64,000 nucleotides of DNA from Candidatus Thiodictyon syntrophicum (lineage in GTDB: Bacteria; Pseudomonadota; Gammaproteobacteria; Chromatiales; Chromatiaceae), in contig NZ_CP020370.1 in NCBI RefSeq assembly GCF_002813775.1, positions 1,083,501 through 1,147,500 on the forward strand, read 5' to 3'. A program made the position numbers and the translations under genes. Numbering within the stretch: position 1 is the first letter of the stretch; every line of letters begins with the position of its first letter. The notes under the pieces are model-generated. The model saw only the letters and a list, made by a program, of their open reading frames with translations. It did no database searches and was not told the origin of the DNA. Positions 41,149 to 62,506 of the stretch are shown here, piece after piece.

Positions 41149-41202
41149 AATTGCCCCGCTGTTTCCGTTATCCCAACCACGGCGCTAAAAGAACAAAAAA
41201 CG

Positions 41203-43118
41203 GGCCTTGATCATAAATCCGGCCAAGACCTAGCGTAGGGCTTGGTTAACCCCCACTGGAGAGCGGCAGGACCCGCGAAATTGTGTACCCTTGGAAGTGC
41301 AAACAAACCGAGGGAGAAGCACGATGTTCGAAGGTCCTGCCGGGATCGACTTTAGCGCAGACATCGGGTCGACGCCATCGGGCGTGGTCCGGCGGTCGGC
41401 CGGCGGTGGGTCGTGAAGCACCGCTCGCGCCTGGAGCGAGCCGAACAGCGCGGGGCGGCCGTGGCCCGCTTGGCGACGGGGCAGCCGCAACGCCACGTCG
41501 CCGCCGAACTGGGCGTGGCGCGCAGCACCTTGCAGGACTGGTGCAAGCCGACCCCGGTCGGCGCGGCCCCGGCGGTGTTGGCGGCCTTCGTGGCGACCCC
41601 TGAGGGCGTGCAGTGGCTGCACCAAGTGGTGGTGGCGGCGCACTTCGTCATCACGCTGCACGGCGGTGCCGGGGTGCGGATGGTGTGTGAATTCTTGAAG
41701 TTGAGTGGGTTGTCGGCGTTCGTCGGCGCGAGCTATGGCACCCACCAGGCCCTCAATGCGGCCTTGGAGGAGATGGTGGTCGCCGTGGCGCGTGAGCAAC
41801 GGGCGGCGTTGGCGGTGGGCATGCCGCACCGCGCGATCACGGCGTGCGAGGATGAGACCTTTCATCCGCAGATTTTGTTGGTCATGTTGGAGCCGGTGTC
41901 GAACTTTCTGCTGCGCGAACAGTACGCCGCCGATCGCACGGCGGCCACCTGGACGCAGGCGTTGCGCGCGGGTCTGGACGGCTTGAACGTGACCGTGATC
42001 CAGGGCACCAGCGACGAGGCCACAGCGTTGCGCCGCCATATCCAGACGGATTGTGCGGCCCATCATTCCCCGGACCTGTTTCATGTGCAACAGGAGGTGT
42101 CCAAGGGCACCAGCCTACACTTGGTCCGCCACGTGAAACAGGCGGGCGCCAGCGTCGCGGCCGCCCAGACGTCGCTGGACGCTGAGCGGGCGACCGCGCA
42201 GGCCTATGACGCCCAATCCCCGCGTCCGCGCGGGCGCCCACCGGCGTTCGCGCCCCGCATTGAAGCCGCCCTGGCGGTCGTGGTGCAGGCCGAAGCCGAT
42301 CAGGTACAGGCGCAAGCGCGTCAGGCCGAGGCCCGTGAACTGGTGCGTGAGTTGGGGACCCTCTATCACCCCTATGAGTTGGAGCAGGGACAGGCGCAGC
42401 CCGTGGCGCGCATCGCGCAACGCTTTGCCGACGTGTGGACGCGGCTGCAACAGCTGGCCGACGCGGCCGATCTGCCAACGCGCGCCCGTGAGCGCCTGGC
42501 CAAGGCGCAGTGCCTGACGATTCAGTTCCTTGCCACCATTACCTTTTTCTTTGCGACCGTGCAGGCCAAGGTCGAGGCGCTGAATCTGCCGCCCGCCGTG
42601 GAACTGGCGTTGCTCACGCAGCTGATTCCGGCGCTCTACCTCGAGCGCGTCGCCAATCGCAGCACGCTCGCTGAACCGCGCCACCGTCTGCACGCCCTGA
42701 GCCGGCAGTTGCTCGAACCGCTGCGCCAACGCGATCATCCGCTCCAGGCCCTCCCAGAGGCCGAGCGCGCGCGCCTCGAACAGGTGGCCGGTGACTGCGC
42801 CGACCTGTTCCAGCGCAGCAGTTCCAGCGTGGAGGGGCGCAACGGCCAACTGTCCCTACATCACCATGGCCGACATCGCCTGAGCGACCGCAAGCTCGAG
42901 GCACTGACCGCCGTACATAACTTCCACCTCCGTCGCCCCGACGGGACCACTGCCGCTGAGCGCTTCTTCGGCCGGGCCCACGAAACGCTGTTCGCGCAGG
43001 TGCTCCAGCGCATGCCGTTGCCCCCGCCGCCAGCGCGCCGACGACCGCGCCCGCCCAAGCCGCCCGCGCTCCTGCCGGTAGCGGCGTAACGGGGGTGGCC
43101 GGAACGATGATCAAGGCC
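41203..43118 (+). mobile_element. DUF6399 transposon with 23-bp inverted repeats and 8-bp duplication
   Basis: 1916 bases. The left end starts GGCCTTGATCATAAATCC and the right end is the complement of GGCCTTGATCATCGTTCC; 20 of 23 bases match. Perfect 8-base target duplication AAAAAACG at 41195-41202 and 43119-43126. It contains a single transposase-like gene. The same termini bound the small elements at 44968 and 62122. Confidence 0.88.
41413..43089 (+). CDS. DUF6399-domain transposase, N-terminus apparently frameshifted
   Basis: 558 residues from GTG 41413. The N-terminal helix-turn-helix (GQPQRHVAAELGVARSTLQD) is followed by CEDETFHPQILLVMLEPVSN and DLFHVQQEVSKG as likely acidic catalytic positions. 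A coiled-coil insert lies at about 240-330, and the C-terminal DUF6399 block is HNFHLRRPDGTTAAERFF. A better start, ATG 41324 behind GGGAGAAG, gives FEGPAGIDFSADIGSTPSGV then stops at 41416. A one-base shift near 41395-41404 would join it as GRRWVVKHRSR, suggesting decay or frameshifting. Confidence 0.82.
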   Translation: MKHRSRLERAEQRGAAVARLATGQPQRHVAAELGVARSTLQDWCKPTPVGAAPAVLAAFVATPEGVQWLHQVVVAAHFVITLHGGAGVRMVCEFLKLSGLSAFVGASYGTHQALNAALEEMVVAVAREQRAALAVGMPHRAITACEDETFHPQILLVMLEPVSNFLLREQYAADRTAATWTQALRAGLDGLNVTVIQGTSDEATALRRHIQTDCAAHHSPDLFHVQQEVSKGTSLHLVRHVKQAGASVAAAQTSLDAERATAQAYDAQSPRPRGRPPAFAPRIEAALAVVVQAEADQVQAQARQAEARELVRELGTLYHPYELEQGQAQPVARIAQRFADVWTRLQQLADAADLPTRARERLAKAQCLTIQFLATITFFFATVQAKVEALNLPPAVELALLTQLIPALYLERVANRSTLAEPRHRLHALSRQLLEPLRQRDHPLQALPEAERARLEQVAGDCADLFQRSSSSVEGRNGQLSLHHHGRHRLSDRKLEALTAVHNFHLRRPDGTTAAERFFGRAHETLFAQVLQRMPLPPPPARRRPRPPKPPALLPVAA

Positions 43119-43208
43119 AAAAAACGCGGAGCGATTCGCACCTTTTGTTATTTAGTCACCGACTTGTAAAGCATTAACCTCGCTAATCCCAGCAGCCGCA
43201 CCATGGCT

Positions 43209-43451
43209 TCAAGGGCTTTGATGCGCAGACTCGATTGATCCGCCCCCATCATCTTTCCTACCGCCCTTCTTTGCCTGGCGTTCGGCAAGCAGCGACGCTC
43301 CTTTAATTTCCCATTCTTCCCAGCGTCGGGGGTCTTCGACTTGGGCAAGCCCGAGCAAGGCCCCGAGCAGCGCGGCCGGCTTGCGGGCAAGCTCCCCGGT
43401 CTTGGTGTCGAGCAGTCCGGCGAGACCCAGCAGCCCCGCGGCCTGGAACAT
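43209..43451 (-). CDS. TraD-like small conjugation/mobilisation protein
   Basis: 80 residues: LGLAGLLDTKTGELARKPAA, LLGALLGLAQVEDPRRWEEW, then a basic tail. The pattern resembles the small TraD-type proteins found beside relaxase genes. It directly follows a decayed mobilisation-type gene, and no relaxase is left in the window. Probably a relic; may or may not be expressed. Confidence 0.5.
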   Translation of the reverse strand: MFQAAGLLGLAGLLDTKTGELARKPAALLGALLGLAQVEDPRRWEEWEIKGASLLAERQAKKGGRKDDGGGSIESAHQSP

Positions 43452-43452
43452 C

Positions 43453-43946
43453 TTATGATCGCGGGCAGCCTTCGCCGATGCGGGGTCTTGAGTGACCAGC
43501 CGGAATTTCTCCTCGCTTTTCTGGCGTGTGGAGTTTACGCCCAGGCGCTTGGTCCGGGTAGCACCCGCCTTTCTCGATCCGCCAACCCGGCAGATCGCAC
43601 CGCGTCAGGATCTCGATGCTACCGGCCTGCGCAAGCTGGTAGGCCGCCTTCCCCTGCGGCGTGTTCGCCCAGGCCGCCGCCGCCGTCTCGTCCCGGGCCG
43701 CCGCGTACCCTCCACCAAGCCCGAGGCCCGGCCGACGCTCTCCATGTAGATCCCGAACCCCAGCGCGCACGCGATCAGCACCGCCATCGCCAGGGACAGA
43801 CCCACCCCCCAGCGCAGTTCACGGGTGCCGGCCACCTGATCCGCGACCCGGTGAGCCGCCGTCGCGACCGCTGCGGCAAGGTCTGCCTTGGCCGCTTGCG
43901 CCACCGCCTTCGCCGTGGCTTCCGCGGTCGCCTTGAACCCCGTCAA
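43453..43946 (-). pseudogene. Mobilisation-associated membrane protein, frameshifted remnant
   Basis: The first frame reads TGFKATAEATAKAVAQAAKA then the membrane segment GVGLSLAMAVLIACALGFGI. A second frame continues GGYAAARDETAAAAWANTPQ and GKAAYQLAQAGSIEILTRCD to LPGWRIEKGG. The join is near 43690-43730. This coiled-coil plus membrane helix plus WANTPQG-type tail occurs in plasmid mobilisation operons. A third frame upstream to about 44060 may hold its N-terminus. Confidence 0.6.
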
Positions 43947-44169
43947 GGTGTCCTTGGCCGCCTGTGCGATCTTCGCCGGGAACGGCTCTTGCTGCCCGGT
44001 GTTCCAGGGCCATCAAGACCTTCCACCGACTCGCGCAACTGCGAGGCGTTGTAAAGCCGGGAGTATGACCGAGGCTCAGGTCCGACTCAACCTCAACAAC
44101 CCCAATTTTCAGGAAAGTTCCAGCCAAGAACCTGTGCGACTACATTAACCTGGGATCGACGCGACTCCG

Positions 44170-44901
44170 TCAGTGTCGCAATTGGTGCGCCACCAATTCC
44201 CCGAGGGCCTTGGCGCCCGTGAACTCCACGGTCTTGTCGGTGTAATAGTTGGCCCGGGTGTACTGGTTGATGCCGACGGCGCGGGCGTCTTCCACCGTTG
44301 CCAGGACATAGGCGGGTTCCTGGCGCCGGGCGGCGTCGAGCCAGATGATCTCGGCCTCCATCAGGCGTTGCGCCGAGGTGGCGGCAATGACGATCAGCGG
44401 GACCCGGGAGAGAAGATAGACATCCGCTCGCAGGCTTTGACTCTCGTCAACCGGTACATCGAACCGCGCCTCGACACCGAGCGACGCCGCGGCGGCTTGG
44501 ACGACCTGGACCACACGTTCGCGGAAATCGGACATCGTCCGCGCCCGTCGCAGGCAGGCGAGTGCCATGACTTGGGACGAGGCCTCTGCGACCGCGAACG
44601 CCGCCTGCTCAAGGTGGGCGGCGCGCGTGGTCAGGGTCTCGCCGTCTTTCTCGACCTGGACCCCGAGGAGGATAGGGAAGGCGTCGAGCCGAGCCACTAC
44701 GGCTGGCGACTCGGGGTCAACGCCGGCGGCTGCAAGGCGGAACAGGGCTTCCCCGTTGTCATCGGCGCGCCACTGCATTCCCTCGCGGTGCGCAAAGATG
44801 ACCACTTGGTCGCCGTCGTCATAGCGCCATGGGGTAACGAGGCGCCCGTTGTCGTTGGTGCCGATCCAGTCGAAGCGCTTGCAGAGGTCGTTAGTATTCA
44901 T
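44170..44901 (-). CDS. DUF1828/DUF1829 domain protein
   Basis: 243 residues from ATG 44901 (MNTNDLCKRFDWIGTNDNGR). The N-terminal part (VTPWRYDDGDQVVIFAHREG, then WRADDNGEALFRLAAAG) matches DUF1828. The C-terminal part (VYLLSRVPLIVIAATSAQRL, INQYTRANYYTDKTVEF) matches DUF1829. The function is unknown; these domains occur in phage, TA and defence contexts. No partner gene is adjacent: a miniature element lies just upstream and decayed mob genes downstream. Confidence 0.72.
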   Translation of the reverse strand: MNTNDLCKRFDWIGTNDNGRLVTPWRYDDGDQVVIFAHREGMQWRADDNGEALFRLAAAGVDPESPAVVARLDAFPILLGVQVEKDGETLTTRAAHLEQAAFAVAEASSQVMALACLRRARTMSDFRERVVQVVQAAAASLGVEARFDVPVDESQSLRADVYLLSRVPLIVIAATSAQRLMEAEIIWLDAARRQEPAYVLATVEDARAVGINQYTRANYYTDKTVEFTGAKALGELVAHQLRH

Positions 44902-44967
44902 AGGAGTTGCTCGTCGTCTGGGGCGATGCACGTCCCGCAACGGACGCAAAGGTCGTTGACCAGGTGC

Positions 44968-45091
44968 GGCCTTGATCATCGTACGGGCCAGCGGCCAGCT
45001 TCTGGAGTTTAAGGCTTCAGCCTTGGTCCCGTACATCCAAGGCTGAAGCCTTGGACTCCGGCCCGGGGCGGCCGGAGCGATGATCAAGGCC
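44968..45091. mobile_element. Miniature inverted-repeat element, copy 1 (124 bp)
   Basis: The ends GGCCTTGATCATCGTACG and (complement) GGCCTTGATCATCGCTCC match the DUF6399 transposon ends. The interior is an inverted pair AAGGCTTCAGCCTTGG / CCAAGGCTGAAGCCTTGG. No coding capacity. The copy at 62122-62243 is the same element in the opposite orientation. Confidence 0.75.
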
Positions 45092-45100
45092 GCGATCTGT

Positions 45101-45329
45101 AACGCCCTTTCAGGGCTAAGACGATCTCTGCGGACGACCCAGGGCGTTGCCCTGGGCTGGTATGTGTGACCCCGTTGGGGTCAATGCTCCCGCCCGGACG
45201 CCTTGATCCCGCGCGGGGTGCCTGCGGCCGCCGCGACCCTTAAGCCCCGAAGGGGCGCGACATACCAGCCCTGGGCAACGCCCTGGGTGGTCGGTTGTAA
45301 AGGAGCCCAGCCCTGAAAGGGCGTGACAT
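45101..45329. repeat. Multi-hairpin intergenic repeat, copy 4 (inverted and expanded)
   Basis: Contains ACGCCCTTTCAGGGCTA, CCCAGGGCGTTGCCCTGGG, GACCCCGTTGGGGTC, then CCCCGAAGGGGCGCGACAT, CCCTGGGCAACGCCCTGGG and CAGCCCTGAAAGGGCGTGAC. Same modules as the other copies in a different order. Confidence 0.8.
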
Positions 45330-47889: not shown

Positions 47890-48015
47890 GGTCCGCTGCG
47901 CGGACCAGCAACCTCGCAGGTCGCGGAATGGCTGAGATGATGATCAAAGCCGATGCGGTGCGAACCCACGCACCGCGAGTGCCAGTCGCCGGAGCGATGA
48001 TCAACGCCTTAGACA
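47885..48015. repeat. GTAGGGTCCGC repeat plus transposon-end-like blocks
   Basis: GTAGGGTCCGCTGCGCGGAC at the metH break recurs at 53487-53520. It is followed by two direct blocks GATGATCAAAGCC (47937-47951) and CCGGAGCGATGATCAACGCC (47989-48008) resembling ends of the DUF6399 transposon family. Confidence 0.6.
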
Positions 48016-61850: not shown

Positions 61851-62122
61851 CCTCCCTCACGATCAGCATCCCTGACTCCTTGCACAAGAGCATACAAGCA
61901 ATGGCCCTCAAGGAGGGGATTTCAGTCAATCAATTCATTGCCAGCGCGGCCGGTGAGAAAATGGCATCGCTGTTGACGCTCGATTATCTGCGTCAAGAGG
62001 CGGCAGTCGGCCGGCGCGATGACTTCGAGCGTTTTCTTGCGGCGGTTCCGGACCGAGCAGCGGACCCTGGTGATGAACTCGGAACGGCATTGCCCAAGAG
62101 TGTTGGGGCCACGCCCGACTAG
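61847..62122 (+). CDS. RHH / HicB-like antitoxin
   Basis: 91 residues. N-terminal ribbon-helix-helix pattern SLTISIPDSLHKSIQAMALK and EGISVNQFIASAAGEKMA. Coupled to the PIN gene by ATGA overlap. As the second potential antitoxin in the module it could be the partner of the PIN toxin or a transcriptional repressor. Its TAG stop overlaps the start of a miniature element, so the C-terminal end may be recent. Confidence 0.85.
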   Translation: MTSLTISIPDSLHKSIQAMALKEGISVNQFIASAAGEKMASLLTLDYLRQEAAVGRRDDFERFLAAVPDRAADPGDELGTALPKSVGATPD

Positions 62123-62243
62123 GCCCTGATCATCGTTTCGGCCGCCCCGGGCCGGAGTCCAAGGCTTCAGCCTTGGATGTATAGAACCAAGGCTGAAGCC
62201 TTGGACTCCAGAAGGTGGCCGCGCCGGAACGATGATCAAAGCC
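62122..62243. mobile_element. Miniature inverted-repeat element, copy 2 (122 bp)
   Basis: Ends GGCCCTGATCATCGTTTC and complement of GGCTTTGATCATCGTTCC. Interior CCAAGGCTTCAGCCTTGG / CCAAGGCTGAAGCCTTGG. Its left half is the reverse complement of the right half of the 44968 copy, including CCGCCCCGGGCCGG. Flanks CCCGACTA and TCCGAGTA agree at 6 of 8 positions, a possible worn 8-base duplication. Confidence 0.75.
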
Positions 62244-62314
62244 TCCGAGTAGCCGCTCCGCCGGTATGAAGGGCGGTTTCACGGTCTGCTCCCGGACGAT
62301 GGGTCTTGCGTCCC

Positions 62315-62506
62315 GACCCCAACGGGGTCACACATACCAGCCCAGGGCCGCGCCCTGGGTATAGGCGTAACGGCGGCTAGCCCTGAAAGGGCGTGACATC
62401 AGGACATCCGCCGTTATGTCACGCCCTTTCAGGGCTAGGCCGATTAAAAAGCGCGGTCCCAGGGTGTTGCGCATTAAGCTGGTATGTCACGCCCCTTCGG
62501 GGCTTG
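62315..62506. repeat. Multi-hairpin intergenic repeat, copy 5 (full length)
   Basis: GACCCCAACGGGGTC, CAGCCCAGGGCCGCGCCCTG, GCCCTGAAAGGGCGTGACAT, then ATGTCACGCCCTTTCAGGGC, a degenerate CCCAGGGTGTTGC block and CGCCCCTTCGGGGC. Same mirror order as the copy at 32494. Confidence 0.85.

Follow-up and report, generated by a model that had tools for sequence, protein, structure and literature searches.

The described systems closest to the one considered here are bacterial miniature inverted-repeat transposable elements (MITEs) with their parent insertion sequences (ISs), and repetitive extragenic palindromic (REP) sequences, including REP doublets forming hairpins (REPINs), with REP-associated tyrosine transposases (RAYTs). 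At issue is a transposon encoding a DUF6399 protein, together with small, non-coding elements bearing nearly the same ends, as found within ‘the window’, i.e., a stretch of 64,000 nucleotides from Candidatus Thiodictyon syntrophicum (contig NZ_CP020370.1, positions 1,083,501 to 1,147,500). The replicons of Cad16T (“Thiodictyon syntrophicum”) are given in excerpts of PMC5944118 as 6,837,296, 484,824, and 416,864 bp. As with MITEAba12 and its parent IS, as described in excerpts of PMC6382973, the small elements here are short, non-coding, multi-copy, matched in their ends, and apparently IS-derived. Unlike in those MITEAba12 excerpts, the parent transposase here is an uncharacterised domain of unknown function (DUF), and within one genome a single type of end encloses many unrelated interiors.

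A precedent for a MITE enclosing a GTAG-type REP is QMITE2 of Coxiella burnetii which, in excerpts of PMC5896051, is 150-190 bp in length, is flanked by 7-11 bp duplications, and has short copies that are essentially REPs. Those excerpts present one REP type and name no parent transposase, whereas here there are six interior families with at least four members each, a parent transposon, and a cargo tied to a RAYT. With REPs, REPINs, and RAYTs (PMC3733652 and PMC3116915, both as excerpted) the present system has in common, by sequence, GTAG and CGTC palindromes, these being the tags of the two large REP super-families (PMC3733652), and also one interior whose REP belongs to a flanked RAYT. Unlike with those systems, however, what appears to be a DDE-type transposon accounts here for the outer boundaries, the duplications, and the empty sites. 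No publication on DUF6399 was found in a literature search, and a term search of excerpts of the Cad16T genome paper (PMC5944118) found no word starting with ‘transpos’ or ‘mobile’ and no ‘insertion sequence’. The end sequence, as searched for in literature text, gave 16 letter matches that are unrelated by title, and the element is not described among the matches listed for REPIN/MITE/RAYT, for Chromatiaceae MITEs, for IS families, or for short-transposon length.

The small elements very probably are MITEs of a DDE-type DUF6399 transposase, with the transposon at 41203-43118 serving as the autonomous element. This layout, as proposed in an earlier, sequence-only reading of the window, is supported by matched ends, by family-level duplications, by empty sites, and by a matching of ends across genomes, and it suggests a likely function for a Pfam DUF along with exact ends and a duplication size. 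Element boundaries, copies, duplications, empty sites, end matching, and the REP/RAYT identity of one cargo can be read directly from the DNA, and from these we infer transposition itself, catalysis by DUF6399, and mobilisation in trans. Features of the window are as follows:

41195..41202, no strand: left copy of the 8-bp target duplication AAAAAACG, a perfect match to the right copy
43119..43126, no strand: right copy of the 8-bp target duplication AAAAAACG, a perfect match to the left copy
41203..43118, + strand: probable autonomous DUF6399 insertion sequence, 1916 bp, as based on copies, ends, and duplication
41203..41225, + strand: left terminal inverted repeat of the DUF6399 transposon, GGCCTTGATCATAAATCCGGCCA
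43096..43118, - strand: right terminal inverted repeat of the DUF6399 transposon, GGCCTTGATCATCGTTCCGGCCA (read on -)
41324..41416, + strand: leader open reading frame (ORF) of 30 codons, MFEGPAGIDFSADIG..., its TGA overlapping the transposase GTG (GTGA)
41413..43089, + strand: putative DUF6399 transposase, 558 aa from GTG, as based on Pfam PF19936 (E=5.8e-59), a 16-protein alignment, and a structure model
44968..45091, + strand: 124-bp MITE of the CAAGGCTTCAGCCTTGG family, without 8-bp duplication
45004..45059, no strand: inner palindrome of the 124-bp MITE, with arms 45004-45026 and 45037-45059
47930..47951, - strand: possible degenerate lone end, 5/22 mismatches, near chance level
47987..48008, - strand: degenerate lone end, 3/22 mismatches
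62122..62243, - strand: 122-bp miniature element of the CAAGGCTTCAGCCTTGG family, with flanking 8-mers CCCGACTA and TCCGAGTA agreeing at 6/8

To go by its copies, ends, and flanks, 41203-43118 is a real insertion sequence. The perfect 8-bp duplication claimed for it is borne out. The claim made for its 23-bp ends stands only in part, as both ends are present but GGCCTTGATCATCGTTCC describes just the right one; on the left the sequence reads GGCCTTGATCATAAATCC, and the two are 87% complementary rather than identical. DUF6399 is found at 15 places in the genome, that is, 12 copies of group 1, the window's included (11 full and one truncated, >99.8% identical over their aligned length), and three of group 2, which have 73% DNA identity to group 1 and boundaries that are alike. 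Perfect 8-bp duplications flank nine of the 11 full group-1 copies, and 9-bp duplications, read by eye, are seen with two of the three group-2 copies. The full group-1 copies lacking a duplication are loci L060 and L066. Since L060 and L064 have their right flank in common, the lack at L060 points to recombination. Among 17 transposon entries from relatives, six have an exact 8-bp duplication (L087, L109, L094, L104, L105, L107) and three agree at 7/8 (L090, L115, L111), a tally in which L087 and L109 apparently are one and the same insertion, with L090 and L115 likewise alike. L094 is a Planctomycetota element with a protein that is 43% identical, and L095, also of Planctomycetota, shares the end type and lacks the duplication. 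Ends of this motif also delimit DUF6399 transposons whose proteins are as little as about 40% identical.

Turning to the small elements, matches to the 22-mer right end number 410 genome-wide (≤3 mismatches) versus one for the reversed pattern. Short inverted pairs of ends, i.e., those spanning 50-400 bp, number 63 in the 2.464 Mb that were scanned (32% of the genome) versus none in a reversed control of the same DNA, which by extrapolation scales up to roughly 200 per genome. The window's 124-bp element has at least 77 BLAST places in the genome, a lower bound from the scoring of 40 of 377 first-look candidates and one that counts both orientations of the same palindromic copies. Flanking 8-mers agree at seven or eight positions in 30 of the 63 pairs where, upon pairing left flanks with shuffled right flanks (2000 shuffles), the mean is 0.57 and the maximum 5; exact adjacent 8- or 9-bp repeats flank 24 of the 63. 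The 8-bp duplications that had been anticipated for small elements outside of the window thus are seen. Elements of relatives (L162-L186) display an exact 8-bp duplication in 14 of 26 cases and an exact 9-bp one in one, a count that leaves out a nested alternative of L173; in 11 further rows (L267-L276) there is 8 bp in L270, 9 bp in L274 (own genome), and none in the others.

Empty sites were looked for by comparing the joined flanks of 10 insertions, i.e., the window transposon along with nine MITEs located elsewhere, with eight genomes of the genus. Two of these 10 loci, which do not include the window MITEs, matched across the junction among the matches listed, so for small elements empty sites, too, are found in sister genomes. 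C1:2127002 (125 bp) is empty in G142 and G107, with 2 and 1 substitutions, and 10 extra bases are found about 60 bp to the left in both sister genomes. C1:3573114 (178 bp) is empty in G107 with 0 substitutions; the element lies within a GGTCCGC REP, and immediately upstream of the empty site G107 has 39 more bp of repeat. At the level of letters these empty sites consist of a single target 8-mer and no element. The other eight loci, the window transposon among them, gave one-sided, repeat-only, or no matches in relatives, among the matches listed.

The ends of MITEs also resemble those of DUF6399 transposons of the same genome more closely than those of other genomes. Based on hand-read lists, which do not include every MITE end of every genome, agreement over inner end positions 13-22 is 7.12/10 versus 6.08 upon permutation (p 0.0006) for 12 genomes, a set in which the own genus is represented once, and is 7.40 versus 6.39 for all 16 genomes, with 0 of 5000 permutations as high. 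The prediction that small elements and DUF6399 transposons keep matching ends in other genomes, too, accordingly holds up, G023 and G028 excepted. Among 146 family genomes DUF6399 itself was detected in 26, with 25 passing the curated cut-off, and, with at most nine candidates scored per genome, it was detected in 11 of 398 genomes drawn from the phylum (eight over the cut-off), own genome counted in both. It reaches Planctomycetota and cyanobacterial plasmids. End matches (≤3 mismatches) are present in 55 of the 146 family genomes and are richest in the own genus, at 153 to 410 each in six genomes. Of 210 family genomes, 26 have perfect-end pairs at 104-134 bp, where the control gave no matches, and 11 have pairs at 135-195 bp. 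A plasmid search for the 124-bp element, from which own-genome records possibly were left out, gave no match. Two cyanobacterial plasmids, H1 (NC_019737.1) and H2 (NZ_CP071718.1), carry DUF6399 relatives of about 30% identity that are annotated as ‘DUF6399 domain-containing protein’.

A number of observations weigh against viewing the small elements as MITEs of the DUF6399 transposon. Own-genome pairs lacking a 7/8 duplication number 33 of 63, both window copies included, and eight of the 17 transposon entries of relatives have no duplication. Group-1 transposons possess unlike ends versus two right-type ends in the 124-bp family, and so do not offer a matching direct parent for it. End matching is poor, at 4-5 of 10, in G023 and G028, while the sister genome G107, a draft of ~910 contigs, has 234 end matches, with end pairs present, and no DUF6399 match. 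The 131-133 bp elements of G081, G049, G098, and G028, furthermore, resemble the own-genome transposon only over their outer ~24-35 bp, and no transposition event was observed, movement being deduced from sequence. As both ends of the main 124-bp family are right-type, and its interior is unrelated to the resident transposon, this family is, on those letters, not a simple internal deletion of that transposon. In favour of matched ends, on the other hand, one own-genome MITE of 124 bp, C1:4085247, has group-2 ends, AAATCCGCCC, though its flanks agree at 2/8 only.

The window protein matches DUF6399 (PF19936) in Pfam. Seven residues (D147, D201, E202, D221, F223, H224, E474) are invariant over 16 aligned DUF6399 proteins, which were picked from retrieved loci as mostly full-length. 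Of these D147, D201, and E474 are putatively catalytic, with an N-terminus that is helix-turn-helix-like and a core that is RNase H-like. An AlphaFold2 model (predicted local distance difference test, pLDDT, 81.9; predicted template modelling score, pTM, 0.72) has predicted strands at 140-147, 156-160, 165-170, 193-200, and 217-220, in an RNase H-like order, with D147 closing the first strand, D201 directly past the fourth, and ~250 mostly helical residues preceding E474. As pLDDT is <50 at residues 203-209, 211-214, and 470-482, the geometry of the active site is not secured. By sequence and model the protein thus would appear to combine those features which mark DDE transposases, i.e., an RNase H-like fold and three conserved acidic residues. 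The top Foldseek neighbour of the model in the PDB is the ISCth4 transposase (6xgw, 6xgx, 6xg8), a weak match (E 0.033, prob 0.94, TM 0.22-0.32), with no structure at E 0.001 or better. ISCth4 we take to be of the IS256 family, and IS256 possesses a DDE core with a helical insertion and a target duplication similar in size to that of the DUF6399 element. Unlike IS256, the DUF6399 protein lacks a match to the IS256/Mutator sequence profile at E ≤1 in either Pfam or NCBIfam, and a PDB search by sequence profile gave a weak match only, to residues 11-45 (E 0.0032). D221-x-x-H224 resembles the C/D(2)H signature of hAT, Mutator, and IS256-like transposases.

The DUF6399 transposase would recognise ends of the form GGCCTTGATCAT-NNNN-CCGGCC and join them to the target with an 8-bp stagger (9-bp in group 2). 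The MITEs, including 44968-45091 and 62122-62243, would be non-coding DNA within the same ends, which this transposase mobilises in trans. The DNA enclosed would, in this genus, usually be one of several unrelated palindromes, with REP-type repeats riding as passengers. A hairpin formed by the palindrome, or in other genera a centre bent by integration host factor (IHF), hypothetically would help so short an element to bring its two close ends together. A wider generalisation, that DUF6399 transposons are a general vehicle for transposase-less REP-type palindromes, that any palindrome landing between two such ends is made mobile by an extruded hairpin that draws the close ends together, with a central IHF bend doing this in lineages lacking palindromic cargo, and that length is set by the geometry of the transpososome rather than by ancestry, seems rather unlikely.

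Within the window, elements of 124 and 122 bp with near-identical ends are present as had been described, including with regard to the opposite orientation of 62122-62243 (a match of 89% opposite versus 75%) and the palindromic interior that they share, CAAGGCTTCAGCCTTGG. Where partial ends had been reported at 47937-48008, two degenerate ends do exist; both, however, are in - orientation, and they form no inverted pair. Matches such as that at 47987-48008 number 18 in 864 kb versus 0 in the reversed control, and matches such as that at 47930-47951 number 19 versus 12. Lone ends overall are numerous: 1.664 Mb contain 191 ends, 99 of them unpaired, a reversed control yielding nine ends. Neither small element of the window has a perfect target duplication. 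At 62122 the agreement is 6/8, and on its sequence this looks like an old insertion. At 44968 the agreement is 1/8, and this copy has a predicted single-stranded DNA fold of z -9.95.

The copy at 44968-45091 probably is not an independent insertion but instead came by recombination or duplication together with an adjoining repeat, GCGATCTGT(C/A)ACGCCCTTTCAGGGCT. As it has no duplication, and as three other copies among 30 neighbour that repeat, placement by recombination may be indicated. In these four of 30 copies (L031, L032, L034, L039) a terminus adjoins the GCGATCTGT...CCCTTTCAGGGCT repeat while their other sides differ. A target duplication, on the other hand, could be lost by mutation or by insertion beside a repeat hotspot. 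The dispersed repeat ACGCCCTTTCAGGGCT, with CCAGGGCGTTGCCCTGGG arms, lies at 45098-45328 and 62310-62500. It has 35 motif matches in the 2.464 Mb, 0 of them within paired elements, and directly adjoins 4 of 30 MITE copies.

Many unrelated palindromes are found within a single type of end, and several of them occur also as free-standing, REP-like repeats. The interiors of the 63 pairs fall into 14 groups, six with four or more members and eight single, with most groups including a few other lengths besides the main one. As assigned from sequence only, these interiors include palindromes of the GTAG and CGTC types. The six larger groups are as follows, with ‘free-standing’ meaning neither within a paired element nor ≤200 bp from a lone end:

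CAAGGCTTCAGCCTTGG: main length 124/125 bp, free-standing in 43/77 motif matches
GGTCCGCACAGCGGACC: main lengths 135 and 144 bp, free-standing in 72/118 motif matches
GTCGCGGCCTGGGGGCCGC: main length 134-136 bp, free-standing in 4/32 motif matches
GAGGTCGAGGCTTTAGCC: main length 144-146 bp, free-standing in 5/22 motif matches
GTAGGGTGCGCCGCGCGCACC: main length 145 bp, free-standing in 9/16 motif matches
GGGAGCGCCGCACCCCAGTGC: main length 178 bp, free-standing in 47/70 motif matches

It is quite possible, if slightly doubtful, that the palindromes are later REP insertions into pre-existing short MITEs, mobile with their REP by accident, rather than passengers which aid mobility. One element of 63 bp, which has a perfect duplication, looks by eye like the 135-bp family minus its palindrome, a 77-bp form without duplication likewise is palindrome-free, and three of the cargos occur alone in 43/77, 72/118, and 47/70 of their motif matches. 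Short palindrome-free forms, however, are equally explained as deletions of palindromes. The CGTC-type cargo GTCGCGGCC..., moreover, is seldom alone (4/32), with 28 of 32 occurrences tied to ends, 15 within a paired element and 13 ≤200 bp from a lone end. Copies with duplications at 7/8 or better also are of near-constant length, with seven at 124/125 bp, three and three at 145 bp, and six at 178 bp. Several such copies of near-equal length per family would imply that it was the palindrome-loaded form itself which spread.

For one cargo a resident RAYT can be pointed to. At L080 (C1:2219407-2222658) a RAYT-like Y1 transposase gene, ending at 1839, is bracketed by several ACTGGGAGCGCCGCACCCCAGTGCGGCG repeats. 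The GGGAGCG repeat is found on both sides of this gene, with arms 92-100% complementary across it, and on that evidence what the 178-bp elements carry between their DUF6399 ends is the REP pair of the resident RAYT. The L080 layout is that of a REPtron, with three repeat units downstream at a spacing of ~78 bp. That the small elements generally are REPINs moved by RAYT (IS200-like) transposases, with the DUF6399 transposon having acquired REP sequence as its ends, fits with their high copy number, palindromic interiors, many lone ends (99/191 unpaired), and at least one cargo belonging to a RAYT, but is highly improbable, and for the outer ends appears largely refuted, given the 8-bp duplications and empty sites, an end motif which bounds DUF6399 transposons to ~40% protein identity, and 0 of 11 Y1-transposase loci bracketed by a pair of DUF6399-type ends within ~1.5 kb. 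The RAYT as mover of the outer ends was rejected on that last count; one of the 11 loci has a single exact end core ~1.1 kb away.

As for MITEs of other genera, elements of 131-133 bp have in common asymmetric ends, CCAAnACC at one end and GGTGG at the other. Upon alignment (11 such elements plus a 125-bp and a 124-bp one, leaving out G015, G122, and G128) most have a central AATCAGnnnCTTR motif. Given these shared asymmetric ends and this central motif, the 131-133 bp elements of several genera (among L162-L186) look like one old lineage, and independent convergences on one length were rejected on the same grounds. The central motif was compared to WATCAANNNNTTR, which we take to be the IHF core consensus. 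An IHF-like core at one mismatch is present in 10 of 16 elements of relatives, always at the same position (58-60 or 72-73, depending on orientation), and in none of 14 own-genome families, each represented by a single element, which mostly have palindromes. Per-element shuffles are mildly significant only (0 to 0.13 for the ten), and the fixed position amid diverged interiors would seem to be better evidence for such a site than are those shuffles. Elements of G015 and G128 are 132 bp, with a palindromic interior and no IHF-like core.

A helical phasing of element lengths, by analogy with the length periodicity that sequences eliminated in Paramecium reportedly display, was dropped after later elements and period scans went against it. 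Duplication-bearing units, by family and modal length, are of 63, 113, 124, 129, 134.5, 135, 144, 145, 145, 178, and 209 bp. These give a Rayleigh R of 0.71 at 10.5 bp, with p 0.002 only if the period is fixed in advance, p 0.03 upon scanning 9-12, and p 0.04 upon scanning 5-20, with another best period, 5.4. Against phasing are a 96-bp element with a perfect duplication, forms of 166, 173, 185, and 206 bp (duplications mostly unverified, with one 185-bp form agreeing at 1/8), and the 131-133 bp elements found in other genera. Excerpts of PMC3464196 are on these eliminated sequences of Paramecium.

The overlap of leader ORF and transposase, of GTGA type, is seen as well, from offsets, in group 2 (L072), L088/L130, L089, L090/L115, and L104. 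In L086, L087, and L109 the leader is fused in frame to the transposase, and in L107 and L110-L113 the two are arranged otherwise. Leader ORF and transposase may be translationally coupled, with coupling or frameshift control a possible role for the leader. Among the individual MITEs, one of 125 bp with a perfect 8-bp duplication (L219, C2:53443-53567) splits a reading frame which, by eye and with flanks translated separately, resembles an antitoxin of the Phd/YefM kind.

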